NCBI GenBank assembly: GCA_017479935.1
Contig: JAFVBO010000049.1
Span: 1-64,000, forward strand
DNA: 64,000 bases
Origin: Lachnospiraceae bacterium
GTDB lineage: Bacteria; Bacillota; Clostridia; Lachnospirales; Lachnospiraceae
Reading direction: 5' to 3'
Below, one piece after another: positions 2,644-17,263 of this stretch. Each line of letters starts with the position of its first letter. Position 1 is the first letter of the stretch. The notes below the pieces were generated by a model. It did no database searches. It saw nothing but the letters and a program-made list of their open reading frames with translations, and was not told the DNA's origin. The position numbers were made by a program, and so were the translations under genes.

Positions 2644-3582
2644 TCAGTTCAATTCCGCCCAGGTCAGGGTGACCACCTGTGCGCCGGCGGCGTAGCTGCT
2701 CAGGTCATAAGGAGAAAAATAGAAGGTCAGGCCGTCTTCTGCGGTGGTGAAGGTCAGGTGACCGTTTTCGGTGTAATTCTCCAGGATGACTGCCGAAAGG
2801 TCGTCATACAAAAACCATTCCCGGTCGTAGGTTTCCAGCAGTTTTGTCTCTAAAAGGTCTGCCAGGCGGGAAGCGTCCGGGCAAAAGGAAGAGAGGGGAA
2901 GAACTTCACCGGAGGTTGAGTCAAAGGTGATGCCATCGTACCAGTAATTCGGGTGGACACCGCCCGTGTTGCTGTAATAGTAGGCGAGCAGACTGACATA
3001 ATGGTCATCGGCCCGCGCCACCTCCAGGGTGCATTCATACGCAAACTGGGAAATGTTCTCCCGCAGGCCATTTCCGATACAGTCCAGGGCAAAGCGCTCG
3101 TAGCTGTCGATTTCCGTGATGGCATCCTCATGAAGCAGTTCATTGTACTCGTCTAAGGAAGCGCGCAGGGCATCGTAGCCTCCCGTTTCCAGATAGACGC
3201 AAGGCCATACGCCCTGGACCAGCGTGCAGGTTCCGTCATCAGACAGGCGGGTTTCTTTGGTTTCCGCCACGACGATGGAAAGGGACGCCGCCGTGTGTTC
3301 CTGTGTCGGGTTGCTGGCAAGAGAGGCGGGCGGCCTGGAGGTCAGGAAAGAAGCGCTACCCGGCGGGGTAATTCCGTTGACTGCAGCGGTCTCCGCGACA
3401 AGTGCGCCGCGGCTTAAGGAAGCAGGCGTCTGGCTGCACGCTGTTACGCATAAAGCCAGGAAAAGCGCAGGCAGGCAGCGGGAAAGCGTGCGAAAAGGCC
3501 TGCGCCACAGAGCAGGCGATGCTTTTTGACTGCAATTCTTATATGCGATAGTGCCCGAGATACTGGCACAATGTTCATTCAT
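2644..3582 (-). CDS. Secreted lipoprotein with DUF4163/DUF3298 (PdaC/RsiV-like) domains
   Basis: A 312-residue protein with a basic N-terminus, a hydrophobic stretch and a lipobox ending VTAC near residue 50, so it is probably anchored to the outer face of the membrane. The C-terminal two thirds resembles the PdaC/RsiV extracellular module: a Tyr-rich DUF4163-like part (YLETGGYDALRASLDEYN) followed by the DUF3298 signature SNTGGVHPNYWYDGITFD. Family members include peptidoglycan deacetylase partners and lysozyme-sensing anti-sigma factors; no sigma factor gene is adjacent, so the role here is open. The ATG at 3582 follows a GGAGG site at good spacing. Confidence 0.8.
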   Translation of the reverse strand: MNEHCASISGTIAYKNCSQKASPALWRRPFRTLSRCLPALFLALCVTACSQTPASLSRGALVAETAAVNGITPPGSASFLTSRPPASLASNPTQEHTAASLSIVVAETKETRLSDDGTCTLVQGVWPCVYLETGGYDALRASLDEYNELLHEDAITEIDSYERFALDCIGNGLRENISQFAYECTLEVARADDHYVSLLAYYYSNTGGVHPNYWYDGITFDSTSGEVLPLSSFCPDASRLADLLETKLLETYDREWFLYDDLSAVILENYTENGHLTFTTAEDGLTFYFSPYDLSSYAAGAQVVTLTWAELN

Positions 3583-3617: not shown

Positions 3618-3644
3618 ATTATAGCACAGTTGCTGTTACTGAAA
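3618..3644 (-). promoter_or_regulatory. Candidate promoter for the lipoprotein gene
   Basis: On the minus strand a perfect TATAAT lies 16 bases after TTTTCA, about 40 bases upstream of the start codon. Confidence 0.5.
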
Positions 3645-3728
3645 AGGCAACAGAAACTAACGAAACTGTATCAAAGAAGTACCGCTTCCTGCCCGGCAAT
3701 GAACTGACAAGTCATTGGTATACAGGCC

Positions 3729-3968
3729 GTCAATAATGGCGCCGGAGGCAGAGTTATATCGTTCGCAGTCTAAGTTCCGTCGGCCAGAACCACTATTTGC
3801 TCATCCCATTTGCAAAAAACATATCGCAGAACGCCGAACTCGCGCTTACGCGCTCAAACAGTCGGACGTTCTGCTCATAAAGCAAATGGGCTCTCGCAAA
3901 GTGGTTCTTTGGCCTCCTCCACATGACTGCTGCACGATATAATCTCTGCCTCCGACGCCATTGTTGAC
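3729..3968. repeat. 240-bp imperfect palindrome (foldback 1)
   Basis: The outer arms, 3729-3761 and 3935-3968, begin GTCAATAATGGCG and end CGCCATTGTTGAC and match over more than 30 bases. Pairing continues inward (CAGAACCAC with GTGGTTCT, CATTTGC with GCAAATG, GCAGAACG with CGTTCTGC) to a small central loop near 3845. The frames crossing it look like by-products of the symmetry rather than genes. Confidence 0.8.
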
Positions 3969-4098
3969 TTACATAATGTTCTGCCTTTTGTGGTATTTCA
4001 GGGACGTTTGATCCTTCTACGCGCTTAACTAATCCGAAAGTGAGCTGCCATTTTCCTTTGCCTTGTGTATAACCGCATGAGATACATAGATTGTCAAT
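3969..4098. other. Spacer between the two large foldbacks
   Basis: About 130 bases with no recognisable gene, promoter or repeat. A TTGTCAATAATAGG stretch at its right end resembles the GTCAATAATGG start of foldback 1, suggesting related borders. Confidence 0.4.
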
Positions 4099-4442
4099 AA
4101 TAGGCTGCGGCCGCGAATGGATCTGTTTGCTGTCATGCATGAGGAGGCCTAAGGCGGCGGACGAGAATTTCCAGGCAGATAGTGGGAGCAAGGGGAACGT
4201 ACCACTTATGGTAGCAAAGAGCTGCACTGACGAGAAATCGCGGTACCTCCCGTACCGCGATTTCAGGGGCACTCTAGGAACACCGTCATCAGACGGGGTT
4301 CCGTATGTGCCCCGACGGCTGTGCGGCTCTTTGCTGCTATTAGTGGTACGCCCCGAAGATCCCATATCTGCCGGAAATCTCTCCGACGTTTTAGGTCTCC
4401 TCATACATGATAGTTCCAAATCCTACGCGGCCGCGACCTATT
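4099..4442. repeat. 344-bp Y-shaped foldback (foldback 2)
   Basis: Long outer arms (about 4099-4225 and 4318-4442) match with scattered mismatches; landmarks are GCGGCCGCG near both ends, CATGAGGAGGCCTAA against TTAGGTCTCCTCAT, and GGCAGATA against TATCTGCC. The apex is not a simple loop but two hairpins: 4234-4264, a perfect 13-bp stem GAAATCGCGGTAC with a 5-base loop, and 4266-4313, GGGGCAC paired with GTGCCCC and capped by CCGTC/GACGG. The layout is a three-way junction. No convincing protein is encoded. Confidence 0.8.
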
Positions 4443-4513
4443 TTTGGCTCTCTCCTCTTCCGGGCAGGCAACTGCAATGACATGTCAGGTCACGATTGGA
4501 TTCAAAAACTGTC

Positions 4514-4542
4514 TTGAAGGCCCGTTTCATTTGCGTTATACT
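4514..4542 (+). promoter_or_regulatory. Promoter of the leucine-rich-repeat gene
   Basis: TTGAAG-N17-TATACT, about 40 bases before the start codon and with AGGAGGGG just upstream of the ATG. Confidence 0.65.
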
Positions 4543-10932: not shown

Positions 10933-12693
10933 ATGAAAAAGGAAAATTCCGGCATCAGCAGAAGAAGTTTCTTAAAGGGTGCCGCTGCAACAGCCGCCGG
11001 CGCTGCCGCATTCAGCGCCATGAATATGCCTGTACTGGCTGATGAAGAAGCCGCTGCTTCCGATGAGGCCATGACCGCTGAAAAGTGGATGAACACCAAG
11101 TGGAGCTTTGAGATTCCCCCGGCTCCGATTGATCCGAGCCTGATCGACCGTGAGTACACCGCCGACATCATCGTGGTAGGCGCCGGTATCGCCGGCCTCT
11201 GCACCGCTGTCAAGGCGAAGGAAGACGGCGCGGACGTTATCGTTTTCTCCGCCGGCCATGGCCCGACAGGACGTGGTGGTTCCAACCATGCGGCTGGCTC
11301 CAAGAAGCTGGATGCTCTGGGACTGGATTGGGGTCCGGAGCAGGAATCCAAGGAGATCAAGGTAGAGCAGATCGCCGGTACCTATCTCATGGATAAGAAG
11401 AAATGGGCGCGCTGGATCAACAACTCCCGTGAATCCGTGGATTGGATGATCGACAAGATGGAATCCCAGGGCTTAAAGACCTGCGTCGAGTTCGGTTACA
11501 ACGATGTCGATGACATCCTGACCGTTCCCCCGGCATCCCACAACTTCTACACCGATCAGATGCCTTTCGGCTCCCTGTTTGGCGCTCCGATGCAGGCGAA
11601 TGCCTACGCGGCTATCTTCCGCGATGAGATGGGCGGCCAGCTCGATTTCGAGATGGTAGCGCAGCAGCTTGTCCGTGAGGACAACAACACCGGTCGTGTC
11701 AGCGCGGTTATCGCTCTGGACAAGGACGGCAAGTATGTGAAGTACAACGCCAACAAGGCCGTTGTCCTGGCAACGGGCGACTTCTCCCGCAACCGTGACA
11801 TGATGGCCAAGTATGCCCCTTGGGTTTACAATGAGTACAAGGATTTCCTGAACTTCGACGAAGTTGATTACGATGCCGGCCTGATCTACACTGGCTTAAT
11901 GCCTGGCGATGGCCAGAAGATGGGTCTGTGGGTTGGCGCTGCATGGCAGAAGACCTTCCCGACCGCTCCGATGATCAACAGCGGCGTGCCTGGTCCCGCT
12001 CTGTTCAACGACATCACCAACTTCCTGGGCATCAACCTGGATTCCACCGGCCATCGTTTCCAGAACGAGGCCACGAACTTCGGTTTCGGTGCTTTCTCGC
12101 TGCTGCAGCTCCCTGATCAGATGGCATTTGGTATCTGGGATGCGGATTATGCGAAGGCTCAGGATTCCTGGGATTCCTTCGGATGCTGCGTAAGCTACGA
12201 AAACGGAATTAAGCCGAAGACCTCCGAGGAAGTGTTAGAGAGCTGGAAGGGCAGCTACACCATGGCTGACACCTTAGATGAGCTCCTGGATCAGCTGGGA
12301 TTTGAGGGTGAGGCCAAGGAAGCCGCGCTTAAGTCCATCGAGGATTACAACAAGTATGCGGAGCAGGGCTTAGATGAAGAGTTCCACAAGAACCCGAAGC
12401 TTTTGCAGACCATCAAGACGCCTCCGTTCTTTGGTTCCAAGACCGTGAAGAACTCCAACGCCATGGTATTCCTTACGATGTGCGGCGGCCTTCGCACCAA
12501 CGAGAAGATGCAGGTCTGCGACGCGGAAGACAAGCCGATCGAGGGTCTGTACAACACCGGTATCATGACCGGCGACTTCTACGCCAACAGCTACAACTTC
12601 GCAATCTACGGCCAGAACCTGGGCGGCACCTGCTGCACGCTGTCCTACCTGCTTGGCAAGGATCTGGCAGAGCTGTGCAAGGCTGAGGCATAA
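10933..12693 (+). CDS. Tat-exported FAD-dependent reductase of the fumarate/urocanate reductase family
   Basis: A 586-residue flavoprotein beginning with a twin-arginine signal (SRRSFLKG, then an Ala-rich stretch) and a Glu/Ala-rich linker. The FAD-binding Rossmann motif DIIVVGAGIAGL lies near residue 80, with the ATGDFSRN segment and C-terminal GGLRT and GIMTGDFYANSY elements typical of the succinate dehydrogenase/fumarate reductase flavoprotein fold. Unlike the flavoprotein at 29.7 kb it lacks an FMN-binding domain, so electrons must come from another exported carrier. Relatives reduce small dietary or host-derived enoates during anaerobic respiration; the substrate here cannot be read from sequence. 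It has its own strong promoter and terminator and precedes the D-serine genes. Confidence 0.85.
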   Translation: MKKENSGISRRSFLKGAAATAAGAAAFSAMNMPVLADEEAAASDEAMTAEKWMNTKWSFEIPPAPIDPSLIDREYTADIIVVGAGIAGLCTAVKAKEDGADVIVFSAGHGPTGRGGSNHAAGSKKLDALGLDWGPEQESKEIKVEQIAGTYLMDKKKWARWINNSRESVDWMIDKMESQGLKTCVEFGYNDVDDILTVPPASHNFYTDQMPFGSLFGAPMQANAYAAIFRDEMGGQLDFEMVAQQLVREDNNTGRVSAVIALDKDGKYVKYNANKAVVLATGDFSRNRDMMAKYAPWVYNEYKDFLNFDEVDYDAGLIYTGLMPGDGQKMGLWVGAAWQKTFPTAPMINSGVPGPALFNDITNFLGINLDSTGHRFQNEATNFGFGAFSLLQLPDQMAFGIWDADYAKAQDSWDSFGCCVSYENGIKPKTSEEVLESWKGSYTMADTLDELLDQLGFEGEAKEAALKSIEDYNKYAEQGLDEEFHKNPKLLQTIKTPPFFGSKTVKNSNAMVFLTMCGGLRTNEKMQVCDAEDKPIEGLYNTGIMTGDFYANSYNFAIYGQNLGGTCCTLSYLLGKDLAELCKAEA

Positions 12694-16947: not shown

Positions 16948-17054
16948 GCCAATAGGGAAAAGGAAATAAGGAAGAGTAGATAGGGACGATCTATTTTGCG
17001 GGCTTGCAAAATGGAGCATTCCTATCTGCTTTTAGGAAGCTTCCGGAGGCTGGG

Positions 17055-17223
17055 TTGCATGGGGAACAGGGCGTTTCGAGGCAAACCCCATGCAAATAAG
17101 AAGCTAACGATAGCTGAGTTGCATGGGAAACAAGCTATTTCGAGCGAAATCCCATGCAAGTAGGAAGCTAGGGAGGGCTAGATTGCATGGGAAACAAGAT
17201 ATTTCGAGCGAAAACCCATGCAA
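17055..17223. repeat. Three tandem 41-nt hairpins with exact 64-bp period
   Basis: Hairpins at 17055-17095, 17119-17159 and 17183-17223 share the arms TTGCATGGG...CCCATGCAA and a TTTCGAG loop region. The 23-base spacers resemble each other too (AGGAAGCTA-type). The array lies between the convergent ends of dsdA and the regulator gene. Confidence 0.85.
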
Positions 17224-17263
17224 AATAAAAGTTGCCTTCGCCCGAACCAAGTTTAAGAAGCGA

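Follow-up and report, generated by a model that had tools for sequence, protein, structure and literature searches.

In the REPIN, two REP palindromes lie in inverted orientation and are mobilised by RAYT (PMC3116915); each REP unit measures 20–40 bp (PMC3733652). Correia/NEMIS, ERIC and RUP are gene-free, dispersed intergenic MITEs with terminal inverted repeats and predicted long stem-loop transcripts; they are 100–200 bp long and mostly have TA termini and target-site duplications (PMC2229807). At quasipalindrome template-switch hot spots, imperfect inverted repeats can be kept paired without selection (PMC8794818, PMC7202029). In the Hin system, altering core nucleotides in one of the sites prevents ligation in the inverted orientation (PMC4817059).

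Here we describe a 797-bp unit at positions 3698–4494 of the window, i.e., the whole 64,000-nucleotide stretch of DNA analysed, in a Lachnospiraceae-like MAG. We regard it as probably one copy of a non-autonomous, dispersed, MITE-like/REPIN-like mobile element that is unusually large and modular, its mobility being inferred from the dispersal of its copies. As in REPINs, an inverted pair of palindromes forms the unit, the spacer is variable, the position is intergenic and lone halves occur as likely relics. However, REP sequences occur in hundreds, whereas here the halves are ~240–355 bp long with nested hairpins and there are ~30 elements, which carry extra 19-bp palindromic ends and are accompanied by no RAYT gene flanked by the element's sequence. 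The resemblance to Correia/NEMIS, ERIC and RUP lies in gene-free, dispersed, intergenic copies with terminal inverted repeats; the differences lie in size (539–1035 bp for elements bounded by the inverted ends), two foldbacks, interchangeable cores and the lack of TA ends or a visible duplication. The autonomous element with the same ends that characterises MITEs was not found in the genome itself. Inverted sites with a matching core, as in invertible DNA, are present statistically, at the central dinucleotide of the ends. Quasipalindrome hot spots alone do not explain dispersed copies, shared ends and the fixed outward pairing of the halves. If mobile, the element would be akin in kind to MITEs and REPINs but far exceed them in size and intricacy.

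The unit and its right half

The unit comprises two foldbacks, FB1 (left half) and FB2 (right half), within 19-bp palindromic inverted ends. It is flanked by two divergently transcribed genes, a leftward gene at 2644–3582 and a rightward leucine-rich-repeat gene, and no supported gene lies within 3698–4494. Its features and immediate context are as follows.

3618–3645, − strand: promoter-like site of the leftward gene 2644–3582 (consensus match only; just outside the element, context only)
3698–3716, + strand: TIR-L, left inverted end, AATGAACTGACAAGTCATT; the conserved part begins at TGA (3700)
3729–3970, − strand: FB1, left half, type-1 long foldback, outward reading on the − strand (folding, pattern search)
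3971–4092, no strand: spacer between FB1 and FB2 (alignment; ~40 to 120 bp, differing among copies)
4093–4447, + strand: FB2, right half, type-2 long foldback with two-hairpin apex (folding, covariance model, covariation)
4234–4264, + strand: apical hairpin 1, GAAATCGCGGTAC / GTACCGCGATTTC, 13 bp, perfect (covarying stem)
4277–4302, + strand: apical hairpin 2, GGAACACCGTCATCAGACGGGGTTCC, 10 bp with one internal A.G mismatch (pattern search, helix 10)
4476–4494, − strand: TIR-R, right inverted end, AATGACATGTCAGGTCACG; its reverse complement pairs with TIR-L
4514–4542, + strand: promoter-like site of the rightward leucine-rich-repeat gene (consensus match only; just outside the element, context only)

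A first-pass annotation of this DNA had described a Y-shaped, 344-bp foldback with a two-hairpin apex at 4099–4442. This structure is real: folded as RNA, the interval forms one unbranched long stem with two apical hairpins at its tip at −231.9 kcal/mol, compared with a mean of −116.8 for 100 dinucleotide shuffles, none of which was as low (0/100, z −21.1). The foldback lies where it had been placed but its stem reaches a few bases beyond, to 4093–4447, and it does not stand alone, being the right half of a 0.8-kb repeat unit. No supported gene covers it, in keeping with the earlier statement that no gene or transposase explains it. Not recognised at that stage were the second foldback at 3729–3970, the 19-bp inverted ends and the recurrence of both foldbacks and of the ends across the genome. 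Folding of the region around FB1 (3690–4010) gave a z score of −10.7. The inverted terminal repeats of AAV (parvovirus-type) likewise form a stem topped by two small hairpins. The likeness is one of shape only, as the present locus has no replication protein and is not at a DNA end, and no sequence relation is claimed.

Copies and architecture across the genome

A DNA search returned 18 matches in the same genome and none in 60 relatives. The pattern of apical hairpin 2 occurs 23 times in this genome and a conserved pattern from the FB1 right arm 27 times. Searching with a covariance model built on the FB2 core recovered 25 full-length copies besides truncated or interrupted ones. The genome holds ~29 type-2 (FB2) cores and 27 type-1 (FB1) cores, and ~30 elements. 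The genes that flank them are ordinary and unrelated to one another. Neither the 396 other family genomes searched with this model nor ~390 genomes sampled across the class yielded a hit. The hairpin pattern was absent from the GTDB contig collection, which may omit the genome itself, and from IMG/VR; the plasmid and phage collections yielded no match, and Rfam gave none at the gathering threshold, the matches at E up to 10 being no better than chance. As far as tested, the element is confined to one genome. The search for related elements suggested in the first-pass annotation succeeded within the genome and found none in related genomes, where a second copy had been asked for; the paralogues in the genome itself nevertheless serve the comparison then envisaged. 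Because the nearest TrmD relatives of the host, from ruminant-gut Lachnospiraceae MAGs, are only 60–65% identical, the host probably represents an undescribed lineage near Lachnospiraceae, as judged from this protein.

The two halves have a fixed relative orientation. Motif annotation of 39 regions, combined with core position lists, placed all 20 two-half elements in the outward (−)(+) arrangement and none in the (+)(−) or direct arrangement. Within this layout the cores occur in the combinations type-1/type-2, type-2/type-1, type-1/type-1 and type-2/type-2. The outer-arm segment GCTGTCATGTGGAGGAGGCC is common to type-1 and type-2 halves, the interiors of which are different, and the two halves are distantly related long quasi-palindromes. 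The outer arms around some cores are quite different, and so are the ends (e.g., contigs C26, C63 and C100; C and L numbers are our labels for contigs and for regions or loci, respectively). Besides two-half elements, there are lone halves, a collapsed half (C133:126514) and tandem hairpin arrays in place of one half (contigs C1 and C61), all of which look like products of decay.

In four FB1 copies (regions L132, L136, L139 and L153) a nested two-hairpin module occupies the same apex position, TGTTTG^AGCG, in stems of different sequence, which implies that apices have been exchanged between stems. We rejected the idea that this module (GGAGCGGAGCACTTAGCG...) is an independently dispersed element, as it is confined to these four FB1 apices.

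Other repeats are associated with the elements. Tandem arrays of ~58–64-bp units with GCATGGG/CCCATGC hairpins, present at window 17049–17224 and in L129 (C1), L148 (C139) and L153 (C61), are common to many intergenic regions and in some cases substitute for half of a double-foldback element. At C63 ~11500–11780 (L138), one FB2 copy has its two apical hairpins separated by an inserted small foldback element of a different kind, with CTAG on either side as if duplicated. The repeat TTGCACCCCGCTGCAAGCGGCGTAAAACAA... is found at window ~1–150, inserted within an FB1 copy at C139:33772–34070 (L164) and near C139:46303.

Pairing of the arms and the question of strand

Across 22 FB2 cores and 78 consensus pairs, 97.0% of cells are paired vs. 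92.0% in shuffled alignments, and 30 of the 78 pairs show changes on both sides, compared with a shuffle mean of 9.3 and at most 9 for slid structures. Pairing in the FB2 core is conserved far better than sequence, and the arm mismatches, which had been read from the single copy as those of a structure under selection or aging after duplication, are indeed non-random in that pairing is retained while sequence changes. Apical hairpin 1 (helix 8) has 99.3% of its cells paired and double changes at five pairs. In apical hairpin 2, sequence and pairing alike hardly vary, and a 22-base pattern is identical in 22 of 23 copies. In FB1, more than one Watson–Crick pair type occurs at 36 of 69 pairs.

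Strong covariation of this kind, together with conserved internal loops and the near-invariance of apical hairpin 2, is what would be expected if the halves were transcribed outward and acted as RNA (regulatory RNA, RNase III substrate or mobile-element RNA), with pairing under selection in the transcript. Of the two strands, the outward one does fold better in 25 of 27 FB1 and 21 of 22 FB2 copies, and it remains the better strand when G-U pairs are forbidden (26/27 and 21/22, respectively). However, this energy advantage derives partly from a few conserved mismatches (A.G, T.T) that are shared by descent. When wobble was assessed in a strand-neutral way, with pairs defined without G-U and on both strands, 1 × 1 mismatches over whole foldbacks were G.T and A.C in similar numbers (37:29 in FB2 and 18:21 in FB1), although a clear excess of G.U would be expected of an RNA, and counting by alignment gave 11:16 for FB1. 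Within the FB2 core alone, the strand-neutral count favors G.T over A.C by 20 to 3 cells and 9 to 3 pairs, a weak bias in the direction of RNA. An RNA reading based on a G.T:A.C ratio of 69:14 from an RNAalifold structure was dropped, since that structure had been picked on the same strand and the strand-neutral recounts removed most of the G.U excess. The only promoter-like sites are external to the element and face away from it, a promoter inside the spacer was discarded as a candidate because none is conserved among the copies, and the foldbacks match no Rfam family. We therefore consider a structured RNA unlikely. Pairing kept at the level of DNA fits the data at least as well, and covariation between paralogous foldbacks, even when strong, does not necessarily point to a functional RNA.

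Pairing could also persist without any selection on structure, if the arms of old duplicated palindromes were kept complementary by template switching and the covariation were a mutational by-product. The process is documented to create hairpin stems and to maintain them, with changes that look compensatory (PMC8794818). The outer arms agree with it, those of FB1 differing wholesale among copies yet pairing within each copy, as do the similar numbers of G.T and A.C mismatches over whole foldbacks. Fully corrected tracts are occasionally seen as well, at the T.T mismatch in the copy at C139:46303 and at the apex mismatch in the element at C21:52268. Yet almost every copy retains the A.G of apical hairpin 2, the T.T of helix 6 and a GCAA/GAAGA loop, and indiscriminate correction should have erased them. 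The near-invariance of apical hairpin 2 requires either sequence constraint or recent spread, and dispersal and the uniformly outward layout are left unaccounted for. As an explanation in its own right we hold this process to be possible but doubtful; since mismatches and internal loops are conserved, template-switch correction cannot account for everything by itself. For the mobile element that we favor, arm pairing would be kept partly because folded DNA is the substrate of the mobilising enzyme and partly by template switching during replication, in which one arm is copied onto the other. With ~30 paralogues in one genome, the family represents a natural experiment on the survival and pairing of long bacterial palindromes, and on selection for folded DNA or RNA vs. 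template-switch correction.

Inverted ends and the search for a mobiliser

The end pattern AATGANCTGNCATGTCATT has 25 matches in the genome at ≤2 mismatches and none in the control, and at least 13 elements carry the 19-bp ends in inverted orientation on either side. Within an element, the two ends agree at their central two bases (22 of 26 bases vs. 11.0 expected, p < 1/20000). A systematic re-scan, from the scoring of which the central bases were omitted, gave matches in 8 of 11 elements vs. 1.7 expected (p = 1e-4). The dinucleotide differs from element to element, so that several independent paired changes are required. Bases 1–2 of the 19-mer show no match beyond chance, which places the edge of the element near TGA; base 6 matches weakly (p ~0.05). 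The matched dinucleotide hints that the ends recombine via a short overlap, or that one end is copied onto the other, and being element-specific it gives a concrete lead on the chemistry of recombination. We saw no target-site duplication, but copies are 15–25% diverged and short duplications would have decayed.

A matched center would also be expected if the palindromic ends were recombinase sites that flip the segment between divergent promoters, with the central two bases having to match for inverted ligation. The serine invertase Hin, in which a single core change in one site blocks inverted ligation (PMC4817059), provides the analogy for a dinucleotide that is matched within and different between elements. 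Both core orders, type-1/type-2 and type-2/type-1, exist at different loci, and elements often lie between divergent genes. However, the genome has only two PF00239 loci, both encoding large serine recombinases (frames of 492 and 574 aa) without an end-like site nearby, and the sites are short compared with known invertase sites. The (−)(+) layout would be unaltered by inversion, which leaves no obvious functional switch, positions of the ends other than the center also agree slightly above chance (position 6, p ~0.05), and no inverted allele was seen in the one assembly. We thus judge an invertible switch to be very unlikely.

For the preferred mobile element, copies would have spread among intergenic regions through a trans-acting recombinase or transposase that would recognise the ends and probably also the folded single strand of the halves. 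Positions upstream of genes, or between divergent genes, would be those where insertions are tolerated, and insertions there may secondarily affect the genes. Based on simple ORF calls, 27 of 38 element flanks are upstream of a gene, a bias that insertion tolerance can explain. An apparent rule that FB2 always faces a promoter was rejected, as all copies had been oriented by FB2. More speculatively, and in our view improbably, the elements would constitute a new class that moves or flips via folded single-stranded or hairpin-ended DNA, with outward nested foldbacks as the enzyme-recognised ends, palindromic outer sites that recombine by a matched central dinucleotide, and cores that serve as interchangeable cassettes.

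No transposase or recombinase gene was found between or beside matching ends in the genome, and an end-pattern search of the same genome recovered only element copies and remnants. Solitary ends at C20:96471, C20:107891 and C133:45665 were considered as possible marks of an autonomous partner, and no transposase lies inside matching ends there. Lone halves and wide gaps contained no partner either; the interval C61:14771–15794 is filled with tandem hairpins. An IS110-like gene beside C139:10881 was dismissed as a partner, as it appears to be inserted into an arm. At C139:11260–12500 (L147), the IS110-like transposase gene adjoins an FB2 copy with a cut left arm, which suggests insertion of the IS110 into the foldback arm.

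Nine loci encode Y1 transposases (PF01797), without a foldback or convincing end sequence nearby. Two long Y1 frames (255 and 271 aa) are RAYT-like, and other short palindromes flank them. These genes, L258 (C27) and L259 (C87), have short palindromes of their own on their flanks (GGGGACGGTTCTCC... and TGTGACAGGGGACGGGCCTCTGTCAC), a textbook REP/RAYT layout within the same genome.
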